Source: a virus. From it: a stretch of 20,229 nucleotides of DNA. Positions 3,537 through 12,895 of the stretch are shown here, one piece after another (within the stretch, counting starts at the first letter, position 1; the number at the start of each line of letters is the position of its first letter). The notes under the pieces were generated by a model. The model had not been told where the DNA came from and ran no database searches. It saw nothing but the letters and a program-made list of their open reading frames with translations. Position numbers and translations under genes: made by a program. Location: positions 1 to 20,229 of the IMG/VR virus record IMGVR_UViG_3300045922_000028; one strand, 5' to 3'.

Positions 3537-3767
3537 TTACTGGAAGATTTCGCGCAGTTTCGCCCCGACGGCACCGGCAATCATGGACACGCCAGCCAAC
3601 AAGCCCCAGGCGCGGTTCTTCAGTTTCTGGTAGTCAGCATTGATAGTGTTGTGCGCCTGCTCGACCTGCTTGATCTCCTGTTCGAGAGCAAGAAGCCGCT
3701 TGTCGATACCCTCAAGAAGCGCCTCGATACGGGCCAGCCGTTCAACGGTGGTTTTGGCGGCGGTCAT
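3537..3767 (-). CDS. Small coiled-coil protein with C-terminal hydrophobic segment
   Basis: This encodes 76 residues from the ATG overlapping the stop of the large ejection-like gene (ATGA). Residues about 6-50 are a charged helix with hydrophobic positions at heptad spacing (ERLARIEALLEGIDKRLLALE), suggesting a coiled coil. Residues 54-70 (AWGLLAGVSMIAGAVGA) are hydrophobic, and the chain ends KLREIFQ. A coiled coil followed by one membrane segment recalls XhlA-type lysis accessory proteins, but a small virion or tail-associated protein is equally possible. It is nine bases from the phosphoesterase gene. I do not recognise the family with confidence. Confidence 0.6.
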   Translation of the reverse strand: MTAAKTTVERLARIEALLEGIDKRLLALEQEIKQVEQAHNTINADYQKLKNRAWGLLAGVSMIAGAVGAKLREIFQ

Positions 3768-5953
3768 TGCGGAACCCCCATCATGGAGGCTTCCGGCGAA
3801 GGCGGGACACCTTCTGGCACACGATCGCCAGTCAGGAGTGTCGTGCCGGCCGAGAGGAAGACCCCCTGCACCAACTCACGGACCCCGCGGCGCGGCATAC
3901 CAGATTTTTCCAGAATGTCGAGAACGCGGGGCAGCTTCTTGGGGTCAAACAGATCATCGGCCAGTTTTTCGGCCGCAGCACGGCCGATCGGCGTGCGGGC
4001 CAGAAGATTGTTGACGATGGCCGCCTTGAACGCGCCACCGCCACCGAAGCCAAAACCGGACAGGATGTCTACCATGTCTTCGGTCGAGTTCAGGACGGTC
4101 TCGATCTTGTCGGGCGGCACACGGGCCAGTGCGGCAAGGGCGTCGATTGCCTGCTTCTGAGAAGCGGCGTAGTTCAGGAACGCTTCGCCTTCCCCGCCCG
4201 GCATGGCCGCAACAATCCTCTCCCGAAAACCGGGGTCATTGGCTGCCCGAGTGGCCAACGAATAGGACTGACTGAGAGAATCGTCATACAGGCCGGAACG
4301 GGCGCCAAGGGTGACGCCGGTTGCGCCTTCGGGGCTTTGGCGGGCGATTGCGGCCAGCGTGTCCGTCGTAGACGCACCGGGGCTGGCTGCCTGGCGCCCA
4401 AGGTTGGCGCCACCGACATACCCAGGATTGCCGCCATCAGCCACAGCGTTACGTCGCGCAAAGTTCCGCACGGCTACACCATATTCAGGCACTTGGTTGC
4501 TGACAAACTGGTTCACCTCGTCGGCCAGATCTTTGTAGTCCCGAGCACCGGGAACCTGGGGGTTCTTGCCGAGCGCACGGCGGATCGTGTCAAAATCACC
4601 GACGGTAAGGGGTTGGCCGTTGTCGAGAGCGTTGCGCAAGCGGTCGCGGGTCAGCTTCGGCAGAGAGACATAGGGCAGGATGTCTTCGGCGATAACCTGG
4701 TGCATACCGGAAATATCAACAGGAGTATCCCGAATGGCTCCGAACTCTGCATTAGCAAGATCGCTGGCACGTCGCTTGAGTTCTTCTGGACCGACAACCG
4801 GACGCCGGCCGGGAATCGGGCCTGCATCGGGGTTGGCCGACAAAGCATTGGGGGTCGCGTTGGGAGTCCGCACCAACCTGTCAGCCATCTCCTCCGGCAA
4901 CGTCGTGCGGGCGGTATCGAGTTCACGGGCCACACGACCGACCTGAGACCCTTCCAACGGACGGGTAAAGCGCCGCGCTTCTTCCGGAGTCAGGATGTCG
5001 GCCAGACGGGGGCCTTTGCCGGTAGACCGCGAATACTGTTCGGCGCGTTGCATAAGATCAGCCGGATCAAGGCCAGCCGATTGAATATAGTCAGCCGCCG
5101 CCGTCTCCGGCCTCTTACCGAATTGCTGGACTACACGCCGAGCCCCCGCGGCCAAGGGGGGCGCCACTGCGCCAAACCCGGCACCGAGCACAGCATCCTG
5201 GTCCACGGTGTCTAGCCTTTGGTCAGGTTCCTGCGCTCCGGCACCCGCCAATGCACTCATACCCGCCCCGATACCGGCACCGGCAAGCATCTGCCTCCCG
5301 AGGCCAGCCACACGGCCAAGCGCGCCTGCGGGGGCAGCGAACTGCCCGGCGATTCCGCCAGCCTGCCCCAACATACGAAGGTTCGGGTCGTCGGCTTGGC
5401 GGCGTTGCTGCTGGCGCTGCCAAGCGGCTTCATACTCCGGCCCGGAAAGAGCGCCTGTTTCGATAAAGGCTTGCGCTTCGTCGGCCCAGTTGAACAGCAT
5501 GACGTCAAAAAAACCGCGCGCAGTCGCGCCAAGATCGCTACTGGGGGTGTAGTTTCCTTCGGCGTCGGGCGCTACGCGGGTGACCTCCCATTGAATCGGA
5601 TCCGTCCCGCCTCGACGGTAGTAATCGGCTGCGGCCTCGATCTGCGTGGGTTTCGGCAAAACGATCCCGCCACCGGTTTCCGCGCTCCTGACGGTGCCGA
5701 TATACCGCCGAACCGCATCCGGCGTTGCCCCGCGCCGAAGCATCTGCTCGATCTCGAACTGCAGTTCGTTCTGTTGAACAGCGTTTGCCGGTGCGACCTC
5801 GCCGATGGCGTCGAACTCGTTTGCAACCGGCTGTGGGGCCGGTGCAACCTCGCCGATGGCGTCGAACCCGTTTGCAACCGGCTGTGAGGCCGGCATGGCT
5901 GCGGGAACCGGCGGGGTCTCCACAACGTCGCTGAAGGCGTCGAACTCGTCCAC
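3764..5953 (-). CDS. Large ejection (internal virion) protein, positional counterpart of P22 gp16
   Basis: This encodes 729 residues with a GTG start one base after the SLT gene's stop. No enzymatic motif is seen. The first 57 residues hold FDAF/FDAIGEVAPA units: two near-identical 17-residue repeats preceded by a weaker copy at the very start. Residues about 190-260 are rich in Gly and Ala (GGIAGQFAAPAGALGRVAGL, GAGIGAGMSALAGAGA) and could insert in or cross a membrane. The middle and C-terminal parts are Ala/Arg-rich and mostly helical, with a second glycine run (FGFGGGGAF) near residue 635. Size, composition and position as the last of three large ORFs after the neck and fibre genes match the ejection proteins of P22-like phages, which leave the capsid with the DNA and form a channel in the host envelope. 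The assignment is by context. Confidence 0.7.
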   Translation of the reverse strand: MDEFDAFSDVVETPPVPAAMPASQPVANGFDAIGEVAPAPQPVANEFDAIGEVAPANAVQQNELQFEIEQMLRRGATPDAVRRYIGTVRSAETGGGIVLPKPTQIEAAADYYRRGGTDPIQWEVTRVAPDAEGNYTPSSDLGATARGFFDVMLFNWADEAQAFIETGALSGPEYEAAWQRQQQRRQADDPNLRMLGQAGGIAGQFAAPAGALGRVAGLGRQMLAGAGIGAGMSALAGAGAQEPDQRLDTVDQDAVLGAGFGAVAPPLAAGARRVVQQFGKRPETAAADYIQSAGLDPADLMQRAEQYSRSTGKGPRLADILTPEEARRFTRPLEGSQVGRVARELDTARTTLPEEMADRLVRTPNATPNALSANPDAGPIPGRRPVVGPEELKRRASDLANAEFGAIRDTPVDISGMHQVIAEDILPYVSLPKLTRDRLRNALDNGQPLTVGDFDTIRRALGKNPQVPGARDYKDLADEVNQFVSNQVPEYGVAVRNFARRNAVADGGNPGYVGGANLGRQAASPGASTTDTLAAIARQSPEGATGVTLGARSGLYDDSLSQSYSLATRAANDPGFRERIVAAMPGGEGEAFLNYAASQKQAIDALAALARVPPDKIETVLNSTEDMVDILSGFGFGGGGAFKAAIVNNLLARTPIGRAAAEKLADDLFDPKKLPRVLDILEKSGMPRRGVRELVQGVFLSAGTTLLTGDRVPEGVPPSPEASMMGVPQ
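5787..5888 (-). repeat. Two tandem 51-base repeats coding a 17-residue FDAIGEV motif
   Basis: Two adjacent copies (5787-5837 and 5838-5888) differ at only a few bases. They code SQPVANGFDAIGEVAPA and PQPVANEFDAIGEVAPA in the ejection-like protein. The protein's first residues (EFDAFSDVVE) are a weaker third copy. The near-identity at the DNA level suggests a recent duplication or ongoing slippage. Confidence 0.9.
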
Positions 5954-8277: not shown

Positions 8278-8695
8278 AGCGCGCCTCGAACTTCTGGCGG
8301 GTCATGGAGAAATGCTCCTGCTGACCCTCTGCTGTGTCCGTCAAACCAAGAGACTTGAACCCCATCTGACGTGTAAACCACCGAGAAGCGCGATTGAACG
8401 CGGGCACCATTCCGACAATGGCGCGAGCCTGGCAAGCAACGAACATATACCGCAGCAAATCTACAGCCGTCAAGAAGGCTTCCGGCACACGATCAACCAT
8501 CAACCAATGGCCCTTGTAGATGCGATCGCCCACTTCCTCGAACATGAGAATGTTCCGACCGTCCGTTATGGCGACGTTAGCAGGATCGGCCAACCACACC
8601 GCCGCGTCGAAGCCCTCTTCCACCATACCAGCCATGTCCGGCTGGTCCACGCGCTCCTGAAGCGTTCTGGCGCATGTGAGAAAGGTGACGGTCAT
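8219..8695 (-). CDS. GNAT-like protein, positional counterpart of P22 gp14 / T7 gp13
   Basis: This encodes 158 residues from the ATG overlapping the stop of the fibre-like gene (ATGA). The frame is open further upstream, but that part overlaps the fibre gene and is not coding-like. Residues about 105-135 (AIVGMVPAFNRASRWFTRQMGFKSLGL) resemble the last part of a GNAT acetyltransferase fold, where a residue run like FTRQMGF closes the domain. A GNAT-like fold is also known in T7 gp13-type internal virion proteins. No clear acetyl-CoA loop (Q/RxxGxG/A) is seen, so activity is doubtful. It sits directly before the gp7-like gene, the place of gene 14 in P22. A role in assembling the ejection proteins is an inference. 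The last 19 residues are encoded by DNA that also codes the start of the next gene. Confidence 0.65.
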   Translation of the reverse strand: MTVTFLTCARTLQERVDQPDMAGMVEEGFDAAVWLADPANVAITDGRNILMFEEVGDRIYKGHWLMVDRVPEAFLTAVDLLRYMFVACQARAIVGMVPAFNRASRWFTRQMGFKSLGLTDTAEGQQEHFSMTRQKFEARYGFFEVQEEADQPSVSVYY

Positions 8696-9639
8696 GCGAT
8701 AAGCGCGTATGCAGTCTTGGTCCCCACACTTGTGGGCCAAGTGCCGGTGCCGCTGGGGGACACGCCCGCAGTCTTGACGCTGCGGCCAGTCATCATGCTG
8801 ACTCCCGTTCCTCCCACGACAGCCGCTGTTCCCACAACCGACTGAAGGTTGGTGACGGACCCCGTGAGAGTAGGGGTTTCCTCCGTGCGCCTGAAAGTCG
8901 CAAGAAGATTGGCGCCAACAATAGCTGTTAATAGGGTCCAAGCAAGGGAAGTAAGACTGACATTGACAGACAGCGCTGTTGCAACAGTAGATGTAGCAAA
9001 TGCCGCTGTTCCGCCTGAATACTCGTAAATGGCAATGGCTCCACCATCTACCTGTGAAGTTGGGTTTTGCGTGGCAGTTTCACCCACCCCCGCTACACGC
9101 CACGCAATAAGGTGGTCAGGGACGGTGGTATTGCTGTCGATATTGGTCCACCCTGAACTGAGTGTCGGGGGATTGGTGTTCGTCGAGTTCATTACGAACG
9201 CGACCAGAATATTCCCCGCCGTTGGCGCAGCATCCATGGTGATGCCGCCTGCAATGTTTGCAGTAGCAACAATTTTCTCTTGAACAAAAGTCACAGGTCC
9301 GCCTCCTCCGCCACCTGAACCGCTGGTTGCCGCCGTGATCCGGCCTTGCGCGTCAACAGTTAGATTCGTGTTCGTGTAACTTCCCGGCGTAACCGACGTG
9401 TTTGACAGATTGAATGTTCGGTTCGCGCTCAGGTTTCCGCCACCAGTGAGGCCGGTTCCGGCTGTCAGGACAATCGACTTGTCCGCCTTGCCGTCCACAT
9501 CGTCAGCCGTGCTGCTCTCATTGCCGAATAGCTGCTCCCACAGTCGCATGAACGTCGAGGTGGGAGTTCCGGTCTCGGGATCGACGATCGGCCTCTTGAT
9601 GTTGAGAGGGTCGATTCGGAGCCTCGGGGGCTTAGCCAT
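8692..9639 (-). CDS. Tail-fibre-like structural protein
   Basis: This encodes 315 residues. The N-terminal 40 residues (RPIVDPETGTPTSTFMRLWEQLF) look like the attachment segment seen in phage fibres. Residues about 58-107 contain the familiar fibre motif AGTGLTGGGNLSANRTFNL followed by a VDAQGRI element, then a Gly-rich linker of six glycines near residue 112. The rest (about 117-315) is Thr/Ser/Ala/Val-rich and probably a beta-sandwich or lectin-like head. Such proteins are usually trimers that project from the tail and bind receptors. It overlaps the gp10-C gene by eight bases upstream and the GNAT-like gene by four downstream. It may be the needle or a short side fibre; the sequence does not decide. 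Confidence 0.78.
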   Translation of the reverse strand: MAKPPRLRIDPLNIKRPIVDPETGTPTSTFMRLWEQLFGNESSTADDVDGKADKSIVLTAGTGLTGGGNLSANRTFNLSNTSVTPGSYTNTNLTVDAQGRITAATSGSGGGGGGPVTFVQEKIVATANIAGGITMDAAPTAGNILVAFVMNSTNTNPPTLSSGWTNIDSNTTVPDHLIAWRVAGVGETATQNPTSQVDGGAIAIYEYSGGTAAFATSTVATALSVNVSLTSLAWTLLTAIVGANLLATFRRTEETPTLTGSVTNLQSVVGTAAVVGGTGVSMMTGRSVKTAGVSPSGTGTWPTSVGTKTAYALIA

Positions 9640-10537
9640 CTTGCGTGTCTCCGTTCAGGCGCACATCCAGGCCGTCGATCCGAACAGTGGCGCCAGTATC
9701 CCGAAACTCGAAAATCCGCCCCGGCGCCCGAATGAGGCCGAGAGAACGCCACATGATTTCGGCGCTGTCTTCGCCGGCCGGAACGTCAATCGAGCCTTGG
9801 TCCTGAAACGACTTGCCGTTGTCGTCGCTGGTGTAGAGCGTGATGGCCGCCGGCACAAAAGCCGGGTTCCCGGTGTTGATAACGAGGAACACCGCATTGT
9901 TACGGACGGATTGGCGCATACGGGCCGGAACGCCACCCGAGACACGACGCTCGAAGTCTTCGGGCGGGTTTTCCTCGATCGGGCTGTCATCGAGGCCATT
10001 GTTCGGATCCAATGTCCACAGAAGGCCGAAATTGTCGTCGCCACCCACGACATTGGTAGCTGCGCCTCCGAGATAGTTGGCTTTGTCGATAGACAGCCAG
10101 TTGAGACCGAGATGCAGCCTCCATGTCGAGATACCCTTGTTGGCCCATGTGCTCCACGAGTTCGTGGTCAGATCGTAGACAAGGCTACTGCTCTCACCAA
10201 GGCGGAGCACATAGAAATCATGGCCATCAAGGCTGAAAGCCCAGGCACGGGCTTTGCGGATTTCCGGCTTTCCTATTACCGCTACCAGAACGGAAGCGTG
10301 CGACACACGGAAAGGAAAACTCCAAGATACCGTAAGCAGAGACGAAAGCTGCGACGTGTCTACTTGCAGCGTTGGCAAGTTGAAACAGGTAAGCAACGAA
10401 AAATGCGACAGATTTAGGTCCGGGTTTCCCTCGTTGAGAGAAAGAGCCGTAGCCTGTGACAGGTTTAGGCCCGGCTCCCCCTCATTGAGAGAAAGAGCCG
10501 TAGCCTGTGACGCCCTGATTTCAGGCGTGTCAGCCAT
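9632..10537 (-). CDS. C-terminal half of a split gp10-like neck protein, with N-terminal repeat array
   Basis: This encodes 301 residues. From about residue 97 the sequence reads as the second half of a P22 gp10-type (packaged-DNA stabilisation) protein: ARAWAFSLDGHDFYVLRLG with a V-Y-D-L-T-T-x-S-W strand, and near the end TLYTSDDNGKSF and WRSLGLIRAPGRIFEF, typical closing beta-propeller blades. In P22 the protein closes the tail channel under the portal after packaging. The matching first half is the 423-residue gene two genes upstream. Residues 10-96 are different: about five units of 17-18 residues starting S-Q or S-H, of which the first two are nearly identical. The start ATG overlaps the previous stop (TAATG). 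The gp10 link is by motif and gene order; the repeat region has no assigned role. Confidence 0.75.
   Translation of the reverse strand: MADTPEIRASQATALSLNEGEPGLNLSQATALSLNEGNPDLNLSHFSLLTCFNLPTLQVDTSQLSSLLTVSWSFPFRVSHASVLVAVIGKPEIRKARAWAFSLDGHDFYVLRLGESSSLVYDLTTNSWSTWANKGISTWRLHLGLNWLSIDKANYLGGAATNVVGGDDNFGLLWTLDPNNGLDDSPIEENPPEDFERRVSGGVPARMRQSVRNNAVFLVINTGNPAFVPAAITLYTSDDNGKSFQDQGSIDVPAGEDSAEIMWRSLGLIRAPGRIFEFRDTGATVRIDGLDVRLNGDTQDG
10250..10510 (-). repeat. Array of about five 17-18-residue units in the gp10-C-like protein
   Basis: Units begin with Ser-Gln or Ser-His followed by alternating hydrophobic residues: SQATALSLNEGEPGLNL, SQATALSLNEGNPDLNL, SHFSLLTCFNLP..., SQLSSLLTVSWSFPFRV and SHASVLVAVIGKPEIRK. 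The first two are a 51-base tandem duplication (10460-10510 and 10409-10459) with only a few base differences; the others are strongly diverged. The array is bracketed by PEIRA at the protein's start and PEIRKA at its end. It could form a stacked beta structure. Confidence 0.75.
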
Positions 10538-11622
10538 TAGACCGTCCGGTCGATCTTCAGATTCATCGCATCAACAGCGGTCGGGGTCCAGGGCGCACTG
10601 GTGGCGGGGTCTTCCTCGAAAATGTCGAACCAATAGGTGAAAGCGGTCGTAACTGGACGATCCGCGCCAGCCTGTTCGTCAGACCCACTAATCACCGACA
10701 CCTGAAGGTTGCCATCGCCGCCGTCGATCTTGCGAGACCGTTGAACCGTCATGACACCCCGGACACTGGTGATGTCGGGGGGCAGATTTGTCAGGGTGCA
10801 AACATAGGCGTCGGGCGGAGTGTTGTCGGCGGAGATGTATTGCGTGGCGTCCAACGGCGGGCTGTTGTCCAACAGATTCCACCCAGTTGAACCCGTCGAA
10901 GGCGCCCAGTTAAGAACAACATCGCCGTCGGGAACGAGGTTGACGACAAACACGGACCCAAGAAAGTCATTGTTGTAGGTGCCGGTGTTGTTCCACACCA
11001 CGAGGTCTTTAATATACATTTGAGCGAAATTACCGGTCGCCCCGGAAAAATGTTCAAGCCACTCTACTTGAGCAATACTACCAGCAGCACCTTGGTTATC
11101 TACACCTGTAAGGTTCAAAACCGTTACGCCGTCAACGCGGATTTCTACAGAACCCGCAACAGAATCAGGGGTGGCTTTGATTTCAATGTGCTGCCATGCG
11201 TTTGCCACAAGAACGGGTCCGGCTGTTTCTCCAATCAAGGTTGTGTTTACGGCCCCGCGAAATACTCGAATACCCCCGTCAGTTCGAACATGAACAGTCA
11301 TGATAGTTTGGTTTATGTTATTAGCAAACCGGATAGCGGGGCCCCTACCTGTGGAAACAGGAAGATTTTCCATCCAAAGCCTAAAACCGTTCCCGACAGT
11401 TGAAAACGACCCCGAAAGCGCTTTTCTCACCCAATTCCCGCCCCCGATCCCCATACGAAGGACACGCCCGCTGGCTGTCGGCTCAGGGTCGTTGACAATA
11501 GAAGGCCGGACATTGGACGGGTTGCCGTCTGATATGCCTGCAACTTCAGCATACGCCCCGTTCCGCATAAACAGAGTGTTCGTGCCATACATCGAAAAGT
11601 TATCCATCCACTCAATAGCCAT
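10537..11622 (-). CDS. Lectin-like (LamG/concanavalin-type) structural protein
   Basis: This encodes 361 residues from an ATG one base after the stop of the gp10-N gene, with AAAGG upstream. Residues about 50-230 read as a jellyroll: FRLWMENLPV, GGIRVFRGAVNTTLIGET, AWQHIEIKATPDSVAGSVEIRVDG, and YIKDLVVWNNTGTYNNDFLG. The W-x-H-I-E pattern and the strand with a D-G turn are typical of concanavalin/LamG-like domains in phage particles. The remainder (about 235-361) has a second beta-rich region ending FDIFEEDPATSAPWT. It may bind a surface sugar or decorate the tail. It separates the two halves of the gp10-like protein. No catalytic motif is seen. The fold is likely; the role is inferred. Confidence 0.72.
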   Translation of the reverse strand: MAIEWMDNFSMYGTNTLFMRNGAYAEVAGISDGNPSNVRPSIVNDPEPTASGRVLRMGIGGGNWVRKALSGSFSTVGNGFRLWMENLPVSTGRGPAIRFANNINQTIMTVHVRTDGGIRVFRGAVNTTLIGETAGPVLVANAWQHIEIKATPDSVAGSVEIRVDGVTVLNLTGVDNQGAAGSIAQVEWLEHFSGATGNFAQMYIKDLVVWNNTGTYNNDFLGSVFVVNLVPDGDVVLNWAPSTGSTGWNLLDNSPPLDATQYISADNTPPDAYVCTLTNLPPDITSVRGVMTVQRSRKIDGGDGNLQVSVISGSDEQAGADRPVTTAFTYWFDIFEEDPATSAPWTPTAVDAMNLKIDRTV

Positions 11623-11623
11623 A

Positions 11624-12895
11624 TCAAAGCACCTTTGCCAGTCTGAGAGCGGTTCGGATTCTTTCCTCTACGCTGTTGTCCGAAATGCGCTGCGGCGCAC
11701 CACCCGAAATGGCATACACCACCCCGTCGCTATCCGCAACGATGATGGTGTCCTTGATCTGTGCGTCTGTGCCCTCGACGGTGCCACGATCAAAGACCTG
11801 GCCCTGCACCCGGAGAAACGGAACTTCGAAATCTCCGGTTGGATACCAGACTTCCGTGGTTTTCTCTCCAAGAAGCCAGAATTGGTCTCCAACGACCCGA
11901 ACAGCAAACAGGGGGTCGGGCGACCTTTCGGCCGTGGCAAAGTTCAAGGGCCGGATGAACGTCTCGCCGGGCTCGATCCAAAAGAACCGCCCGTTGAAAC
12001 CGCTCACATTCGTCGTCTTCGGAACCACAATGACATATCCGGCAACGAAAGCCACGCTGACAGGCGCCAGATCGTCAGGCATGTCCACAGTCGTCAGATA
12101 GGGCGACCCGCCTCCCGTAAGCGTAGCCGCGCCCCAGGAGATGTTTGCGCCCGTCTCCGTCGTCGTGATACCGTTTCCGGGAGCGCCGACATCTCGCGCC
12201 TGCACTCGAAGCGTGAGGGTTGTTGAAGACCGGCCGAGAACGGTCGGATGCTCCACCAACAACGTGGAATACTGCGTGCCAGCGTCCCCATCGTTGTTTA
12301 TGGCCGCTCGCATATTGTCGAGAGACACAACATTCGAGCCGCCAAGCTGCACCAGCCACGGATTGGCTGAAGTGCCAGCAGGCGTTCCGGCGTTTACACT
12401 GGCGTTGGTCCACTGATAATACACGCCGCCGATCTCGATGACATCGTTGTTCTGAATCGCCCCCGCAGCCGACAGAACTCCAAGCGCGTATCCGTTTTCC
12501 GTGTAGAGCCAGAGCGTCGTGCCGTCGGCAACGTAACAGAACTCAGGCGTTCCGGAGCCAAGAGCCGAAGTGATAGCAATGCTCGGAAAGCCATCCGGGT
12601 TCCCCGCAATGCCGGAACCAATGAAGGTAACGATGTTCGTCGGGTCCAGCCGGTATAACTCCTGCCCCGAGACGATAAACAGCGCGCCGCCAAAGCTACC
12701 TGGCTCGCTGAACAGCGCACGAATCGGGCCTTCTCCGACACTGACAAACCGTCGGTTGGAAGGCCGCGACAGGATCGCGGTCCCCTCCTTCAAGTTCGTC
12801 GGGTTGGCTTCCAGATAGCGGTTGCGGAGCGGAATGAAGGGCTCACCCGCTACACTACGCCGCCAGTCGGTGTTCCAGAGATTAACGGTTACCAC
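11624..12895 (-). CDS. N-terminal half of a split gp10-like neck protein
   Basis: This encodes 423 residues with a GTG start that overlaps the gp4-like gene by seven bases. The beginning (LRNRYLEANP, KEGTAILSRPSNRRF) and later elements (VRVVGDQFWLLGEKTTEVWYPTGD at about 333-354, PFLRVQGQVFDRGTVEGT at 359-376, GVVYAISGGAPQRISDNSVEERI at 391-413) follow the pattern of P22 gp10-type packaged-DNA stabilisation proteins. It stops at residue 423, just where the next blade (found in the later 301-residue gene) should begin. Residues about 142-266 seem to be an inserted beta domain of a kind seen in other phage tail proteins (DNMRAAINNDGDAGTQYS, GAPGNGITTTET, WGAATLTGG). The protein should sit in the neck below the gp4-like adaptor. 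Confident for the family; the split is read from motifs. Confidence 0.8.
   Translation of the reverse strand: MVTVNLWNTDWRRSVAGEPFIPLRNRYLEANPTNLKEGTAILSRPSNRRFVSVGEGPIRALFSEPGSFGGALFIVSGQELYRLDPTNIVTFIGSGIAGNPDGFPSIAITSALGSGTPEFCYVADGTTLWLYTENGYALGVLSAAGAIQNNDVIEIGGVYYQWTNASVNAGTPAGTSANPWLVQLGGSNVVSLDNMRAAINNDGDAGTQYSTLLVEHPTVLGRSSTTLTLRVQARDVGAPGNGITTTETGANISWGAATLTGGGSPYLTTVDMPDDLAPVSVAFVAGYVIVVPKTTNVSGFNGRFFWIEPGETFIRPLNFATAERSPDPLFAVRVVGDQFWLLGEKTTEVWYPTGDFEVPFLRVQGQVFDRGTVEGTDAQIKDTIIVADSDGVVYAISGGAPQRISDNSVEERIRTALRLAKVL

Follow-up and report, generated by a model that had tools for sequence, protein, structure and literature searches.

Packaged DNA is sealed in by the neck protein gp10, an essential gate that forms a hexameric beta-propeller ring, with the gp4-type adaptor on one side and the tail needle on the other. 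In the window analysed here, which is the whole 20,229 bases of the IMG/VR virus record IMGVR_UViG_3300045922_000028 and represents a single metagenomic contig, a protein of the P22 gp10/Hc3 type is encoded by two open reading frames (ORFs), hereafter gp10N and gp10C, and a lectin-like gene is located between them (Table 1). The original prediction, made from the sequence alone, had described a gp10-like protein divided in this way and had suggested a profile search of both ORFs against the P22 gp10 family. Both ORFs match PHROG 578 (486 positions) in different regions of the profile, gp10N over positions 25-280 (E-value 1.8e-27) and gp10C over positions 284-471 (E-value 4.9e-13), without any overlap. 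The same partition is observed with the solved structure of the Pan3 stabilization protein (9vyg_M), where gp10N matches residues 119-261 (6e-19) and gp10C matches residues 315-439 (9e-5). Pfam gave no significant match for gp10N, gp10C or the lectin-like protein, and a tblastn search of gp10C against phage records gave no match.

The position of the break agrees with the original description. The gene of 423 residues ends just after the SVEERI motif (ORF terminus SVEERIRTALRLAKVL, followed by the stop codon), and the next blade, which begins with RAWAFSLDGHDFYVLRLG, is found at residue 97 of the 301-residue ORF, approximately 1.1 kb beyond the end of gp10N. In the unsplit relatives the sequence runs uninterrupted as ...QRVSTHAVEYAISQ...AVSYTYQQEGHSFYVL..., whereas in the window gp10N terminates with ...QRISDNSVEERIRTALRLAKVL and its stop codon and gp10C resumes at ...KARAWAFSLDGHDFYVL... 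It follows that the break falls at one linker and that little or nothing has been lost. This point is constant among the relatives: the VEERI helix lies before the break and the RAWxFxLDGH strand after it. In the window, gp10N and the lectin-like gene are separated by one base, and the stop codon of the lectin-like gene overlaps the start codon of gp10C (TAATG); across the relatives the stop-start gaps are mostly comprised between -4 and 18 nucleotides. Such close or overlapping junctions make translational coupling of the three genes probable.

The lectin-like nature of the gene between the halves was also borne out. The protein matches PHROG 2448 (E-value 3.5e-26) from residue 97 to 354, over positions 81-328 of the 335 positions of the profile. 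A modelled homologue displays a concanavalin A (ConA)-like jelly roll followed by a conserved second domain, and the nearest PDB structures to the jelly roll are domains of the alginate-lyase and carbohydrate-binding types. Homologues belonging to PHROG 2448 are found among the tail genes of unrelated phages.

Related loci were collected by protein-based scans of viral contigs and by one scan of bacterial genomes. A total of 127 distinct loci contain both halves, always on separate ORFs (0 of 127 on one ORF), and a lectin-type gene lies between the halves in 108 of them: 74 with a gene of standard length, 27 with a long gene, four with a double gene and three with an extra domain on gp10C. Sixteen loci have no lectin gene and carry a domain of more than 150 amino acids fused ahead of gp10C, and the last three have neither a lectin nor a fused domain according to the profiles used. 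The other occupants of the break include Hoc-like Ig domains fused to the end of gp10N (locus L038), an F5/8-type C domain ahead of gp10C (L057) and a tail-fibre domain; the gap of L136 contains a lectin-like frame that the profile did not detect. The long domains ahead of gp10C in L138, L144, L152 and L162 look propeller-like by eye, and those of L138, L152 and L162 have no significant match to a Pfam or PHROG family. The split pair is preceded in L298 (1872-3350) and L305 (1450-2928) by another ORF with a match to the gp10N profile; this ORF is possibly just the mobile domain described below in another protein.

A full-length gp10 elsewhere in the relatives was also looked for. The PHROG 578 family search detected only gp10 pieces, and no full-length gp10, in 25 related records of 27-51 kb: in 23 of them a piece of gp10N and a piece of gp10C are found, overlapping slightly at most in profile positions; in the other two this search detected gp10N pieces alone, and gp10C was recovered with a closer profile. 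Thus none of the outcomes listed beforehand as refuting the original prediction was observed. The more distant unsplit relatives have a single ORF of 442-526 amino acids in 87 cases out of 87. No intermediate consisting of a single chain with a large insert occurs among these 87 sequences; the BFVD gp10 entries of 561-656 amino acids lie outside that set. The top match among viral structures is BFVD A0A516L9K4, which is 46% identical over 427 alignment columns; with 422 amino acids it has the length of gp10N and is probably another split half.

In an unrooted maximum-likelihood tree of 63 split and 11 unsplit rows, the split group is located on one side of a branch with a support of 100/99, and Pam1 (L030) forms a long branch adjoining this group. 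A lectin-type gene, in a longer form, is already present in L020 and its relatives, the deepest of the split lineages, so that a single cut with the lectin inside, followed by later replacement of the lectin by fused domains, is the simplest history. The split group is a large, apparently uncultured clade of short-tailed phages. None of the phage records examined falls within it, and the nearest annotated ones (MW202691 and MW202483) have a single-chain gp10. The sole matches of the clade in bacterial genomes are L163 (Erythrobacter) and L164 (Chthoniobacterales), both metagenome-assembled genomes; they are weak host hints, as they represent binned phage contigs.

Folding was performed one chain at a time with unchanged reading frames. 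In the relative L116 the three genes are in one frame, and gp10N, lectin and gp10C were therefore folded as one read-through chain, the two intervening stop codons being replaced by glycine. A model obtained by AlphaFold from 77 rows, including 14 unsplit homologues, has a mean predicted local distance difference test score (pLDDT) of 81 and a predicted template modelling score (pTM) of 0.65, both gp10 parts being mostly near a pLDDT of 90. Its top PDB match with Foldseek is Pan3 9vyg_M (E-value 3e-17, template modelling score 0.87 by target length), with an alignment that spans both halves. This superposition indicates that the halves are compatible with one gp10 propeller, and the prediction thus supports a beta-propeller fold for the combined halves. 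The mixed fragment alignments A4 and A7 were discarded because of misplaced fragments, and the read-through model from alignment A5, too poor for a propeller, was replaced by that from A11, which contains unsplit rows.

Pairwise distances were correlated over 46-50 non-redundant loci; tree distances are non-independent and the values are therefore descriptive. The correlation between gp10N and gp10C distances (r = 0.82-0.83) is higher than that between gp10N and its immediate neighbour, the gene in gp4 position (r = 0.64), and the partial correlation of the two halves given gp4 is 0.71. The lectin and gp10 distances are correlated with r = 0.13-0.16 (0.13-0.14 for gp10N and lectin). The rank order, with gp10N-gp10C above gp10N-gp4 and the latter above gp10N-lectin, is clear.

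The gene order on the minus strand is P22-like: portal (PHROG 156), scaffold (PHROG 8865), coat (PHROG 283), a collagen-like fibre gene and the gp4-position gene, then gp10N, the lectin-like gene, gp10C, a fibre gene, a gene with an S74 domain and a transglycosylase (SLT) gene. The portal-scaffold-coat-gp4-gp10 order of the phages with PHROG 578 is thus encountered in the window, the gp4 slot being occupied by an ORF for which Pfam and PHROG searches gave no match. After the transglycosylase gene, an ORF of 729 amino acids (3764-5953, minus strand), without any significant Pfam or PHROG match, may encode an ejection protein according to its position.

Table 1. Positions in the window of the split gp10, of the lectin-like gene and of the adjacent genes.
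Feature	Position	Strand	Evidence
gp10N, N-terminal half of P22-gp10/Hc3-type neck propeller, 423 aa, GTG start	11624..12895	-	PHROG 578, PDB 9vyg_M and 7eeq_1; kept in all relatives
3' end of gp10N, helix SVEERIRTALRLAKVL before the stop codon, upstream edge of the break	11624..11674	-	Aligns with ...VSTHAVEYAISQ... of unsplit gp10
Lectin-like gene between the halves, 361 aa	10537..11622	-	PHROG 2448 (3.5e-26), PHROG 6368; ConA-like fold in a modelled homologue
Outer ConA/LamG-like domain of the lectin, residues ~1-222, hypervariable	10957..11622	-	DNA comparison with a near-identical phage; largest distances of the family
C-terminal domain of the lectin, residues ~223-361, conserved	10540..10956	-	83-95% DNA identity to the close phage; invariant residues in the alignment
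gp10C, C-terminal propeller half with N-terminal repeat segment, 301 aa	9632..10537	-	PHROG 578; PDB 9vyg_M
R-repeat segment of gp10C, residues 1-95, units of ~17-18 aa, e.g. LNLSQATALSLNEGNPD	10253..10537	-	Sequence, alignment
Propeller half of gp10C, starting at RAWAFSLDGHDFYVLRLG	9635..10252	-	Profile and structure matches; aligns with YTYQQEGHSFYVL of unsplit gp10
gp4-position gene (place of the P22 tail accessory factor), 262 aa	12889..13677	-	Position only; immediately precedes gp10N in the first set of relatives
Tail-fibre-like gene downstream of gp10C	8692..9639	-	PHROG 38058 (1.6e-6)

The window was compared at the DNA level with a close relative, IMGVR_UViG_3300044998_000118. The gp4-position, gp10N, gp10C, S74 and SLT genes are 97-99% identical between the two phages. 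The identity is 46-63% over most of the length of the outer lectin domain, approximately 75% in the repeat segment, against 98% in the adjoining propeller half of gp10C, and approximately 34% in the distal fibre gene. In the fibre-like gene downstream of gp10C, residues 1-114 are conserved (98% identity) and the remainder is hypervariable; it is probably a second receptor-binding gene. As judged from these sequences, the variability of the outer lectin domain, of the repeats and of the distal fibre is the pattern of receptor-contacting parts. No near-identical lectins (at least 75%) were found on divergent gp10 proteins, which leaves recent swaps of whole genes unsupported, and exchange is inferred solely from the decoupled distances. 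A domain of approximately 130 amino acids inside gp10N (residues ~133-264, 12104..12499 on the minus strand, with approximate boundaries) is variably present in the relatives: it is absent from L021, L106, L109, L113 and L136 and recurs within the middle, lectin-like gene of other loci (L019, L020, L250-L281 and the basal group). This distribution identifies it as a putative mobile domain common to neighbouring proteins.

A similar association of the lectin with repeats appears to occur in unrelated phages. In the Mesorhizobium phage Cp1R7A-A1, the gene after the lectin encodes a stand-alone R-repeat protein that resembles the start of gp10C (E-value 4.6e-4, in a small database). In the Tetraselmis viridis virus S20 (L025, NC_020840), the gene after the lectin (9306-10805) combines on one chain a LamG domain, R-repeats and a baseplate hub (PF09931, 1.1e-37); these repeats are visible in the sequence and were not detected by the repeat profile. 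The true host of S20 is probably a bacterium, in view of its siphophage-type tail genes and despite the algal host listed. Because the lectin and the R-repeats appear to recur together in this way, they look like a portable unit in which the repeats are joined N-terminally to a structural domain of the tail, and this mode of attachment suggests that the repeats may act as a docking arm.

Taken as a whole, we consider it likely that gp10 was interrupted long ago by an insertion at an inter-blade linker, that both parts remained functional as a two-chain propeller and that the gap has since served to accommodate adhesion modules. The ancestor would have possessed an ordinary one-chain gp10. A tail cassette, composed of a PHROG 2448 lectin gene and a short repeat segment, would have been inserted into the linker that joins two blades, leaving gp10N to end after the VEERI helix, the lectin as a gene of its own and the repeats as the N-terminus of gp10C. 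The two gp10 chains would then assemble into one propeller, as suggested by the profile coverage, the co-variation and the homology-guided model. The gap would be used in most members of the clade for a lectin, and elsewhere for domains fused directly to one half. The lectin is probably tethered via the repeats on the outer face of the neck, where its variable domain would touch host surface glycans; that it is held beside the propeller, as had been suggested, is plausible. The original prediction had offered a neck protein assembled from two chains or a gene inserted with both parts functional, and both find support in the single-chain ancestry, the retention of the two halves, the co-variation and the read-through model. 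More tentatively, as a serious possibility, we propose that the gp10 break is a general adhesion slot, in which the propeller would be kept as two chains to allow a separate fast-evolving lectin or a fused domain to be mounted on the neck, at the blade junction, via a repeat arm; host recognition would then be placed on the DNA gate.

Several observations weigh against this two-chain scheme with a mounted lectin. The co-variation of gp10N and gp10C may come in part from shared descent, and the distances of the lectin and of the repeats are correlated with only r = 0.25. The homology of the repeats is built on short, low-complexity units, and in the L116 model the repeat segment (793-851) is unstructured, with a pLDDT below 50. 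A first read-through model of L116, built from 20 rows with no unsplit homologue among them, failed to give a propeller (pLDDT 57, pTM 0.40); since unsplit rows guided the second model, the latter is not an independent proof of chain association. Finally, the contact between the lectin and gp10 is an inference only.

The lectin gene could alternatively be a passenger in a tolerated spot, free or attached elsewhere, beside a genuine two-chain propeller. The decoupling of its distances from those of gp10 (r = 0.13-0.16) and the different location of its homologues in unrelated phages are in favour of this explanation. We nevertheless regard it as unlikely, given that a lectin-type gene occupies this exact spot in 108 of the 127 loci, the deepest branch included, that it nearly always adjoins the repeat segment, and that the loci without it usually carry another domain fused at this junction. 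It is rather improbable that gp10N alone is the working neck protein and that gp10C has become a separate protein, for instance a lectin anchor, which no longer completes the propeller. The halves are indeed separate chains, and gp10C bears the added repeat segment and, in 19 of the 127 loci, a further domain; however, gp10N spans just approximately 55% of the PHROG 578 profile, and gp10C retains the blade motifs, shows the same degree of conservation as gp10N between the two close phages and co-varies with gp10N more than gp4 does. The read-through model, moreover, superposes both halves on one solved propeller.

Rejoining of the halves before assembly, by an intron or trans-splicing, a split intein or programmed bypass, would also predict a conserved and fixed break. 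This explanation was rejected as highly improbable, since no such sequence is present at the break and the junctions, mostly of -4 to 18 nucleotides with separate stop and start codons, leave no room for an intron; in addition, neither half has an intein-like extension, and a complete conserved gene lies between them. A pseudogene, a sequencing error or a chimeric contig might be invoked for a window that is one metagenomic contig. The loci survey refutes this reading, whose probability is negligible, because the same order is found in 127 distinct loci from many samples and both halves retain long open frames as well as conserved residues.

If the two-chain propeller with an adhesion slot is correct, it would show that a core propeller tolerates being opened and can serve as a mounting site. 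A two-chain gp10 would provide a natural two-piece system for the closure of the neck and for the signal from host contact to the gate. The annotation would also be corrected, as both halves are prone to be labelled "hypothetical" or "truncated".

No report of a two-chain gp10 was found in the open-access literature, and a study of podophage ancestry handled the P22-type gp10 (tubeB) as one protein (PMC10386132). The split gp10 is homologous to P22 gp10 and to the PHROG 578 Hc3 proteins (solved structures: Pan3 stabilization protein 9vyg, Pam1 needle head 7eeq and P22 gp10 8eap) over nearly the whole profile, with the same blade motifs, and it occupies the same place after a gp4-type gene in a P22-like order. 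The known members of PHROG 578 consist of one continuous chain of approximately 440-530 amino acids, whereas the split clade has two ORFs and, unlike P22 gp10, displays a lectin gene and a repeat segment in the break and an extra domain inserted in gp10N. The PHROG 2448 proteins of Cp1R7A-A1, of S20 and of Brevundimonas and Sphingomonas phages are the same two-domain protein, apparently followed in two of them by similar repeats; in these unrelated phages they are located among the tail-tip or fibre genes and not within a neck gene. The S20 hub (TVGG_00031; LamG, R-repeats and PF09931 hub) resembles gp10C in apparently having such repeats N-terminal to a tail structural domain and in being encoded right after the lectin, but it is the baseplate hub of a long-tailed phage and not a podophage propeller. 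Seven-bladed propellers of short tails are also known from T7 (gp12), SU10 (nozzle) and crAss001 (muzzle), with extra domains inserted at a propeller opening; T7 and SU10 in addition have docking sites for fibres (PMC6702177, PMC9509320, PMC10172136). In these three proteins the insertions are contained within a continuous chain, whereas in the split gp10 the continuity of the chain is lost and the inserted protein is encoded by a gene of its own.

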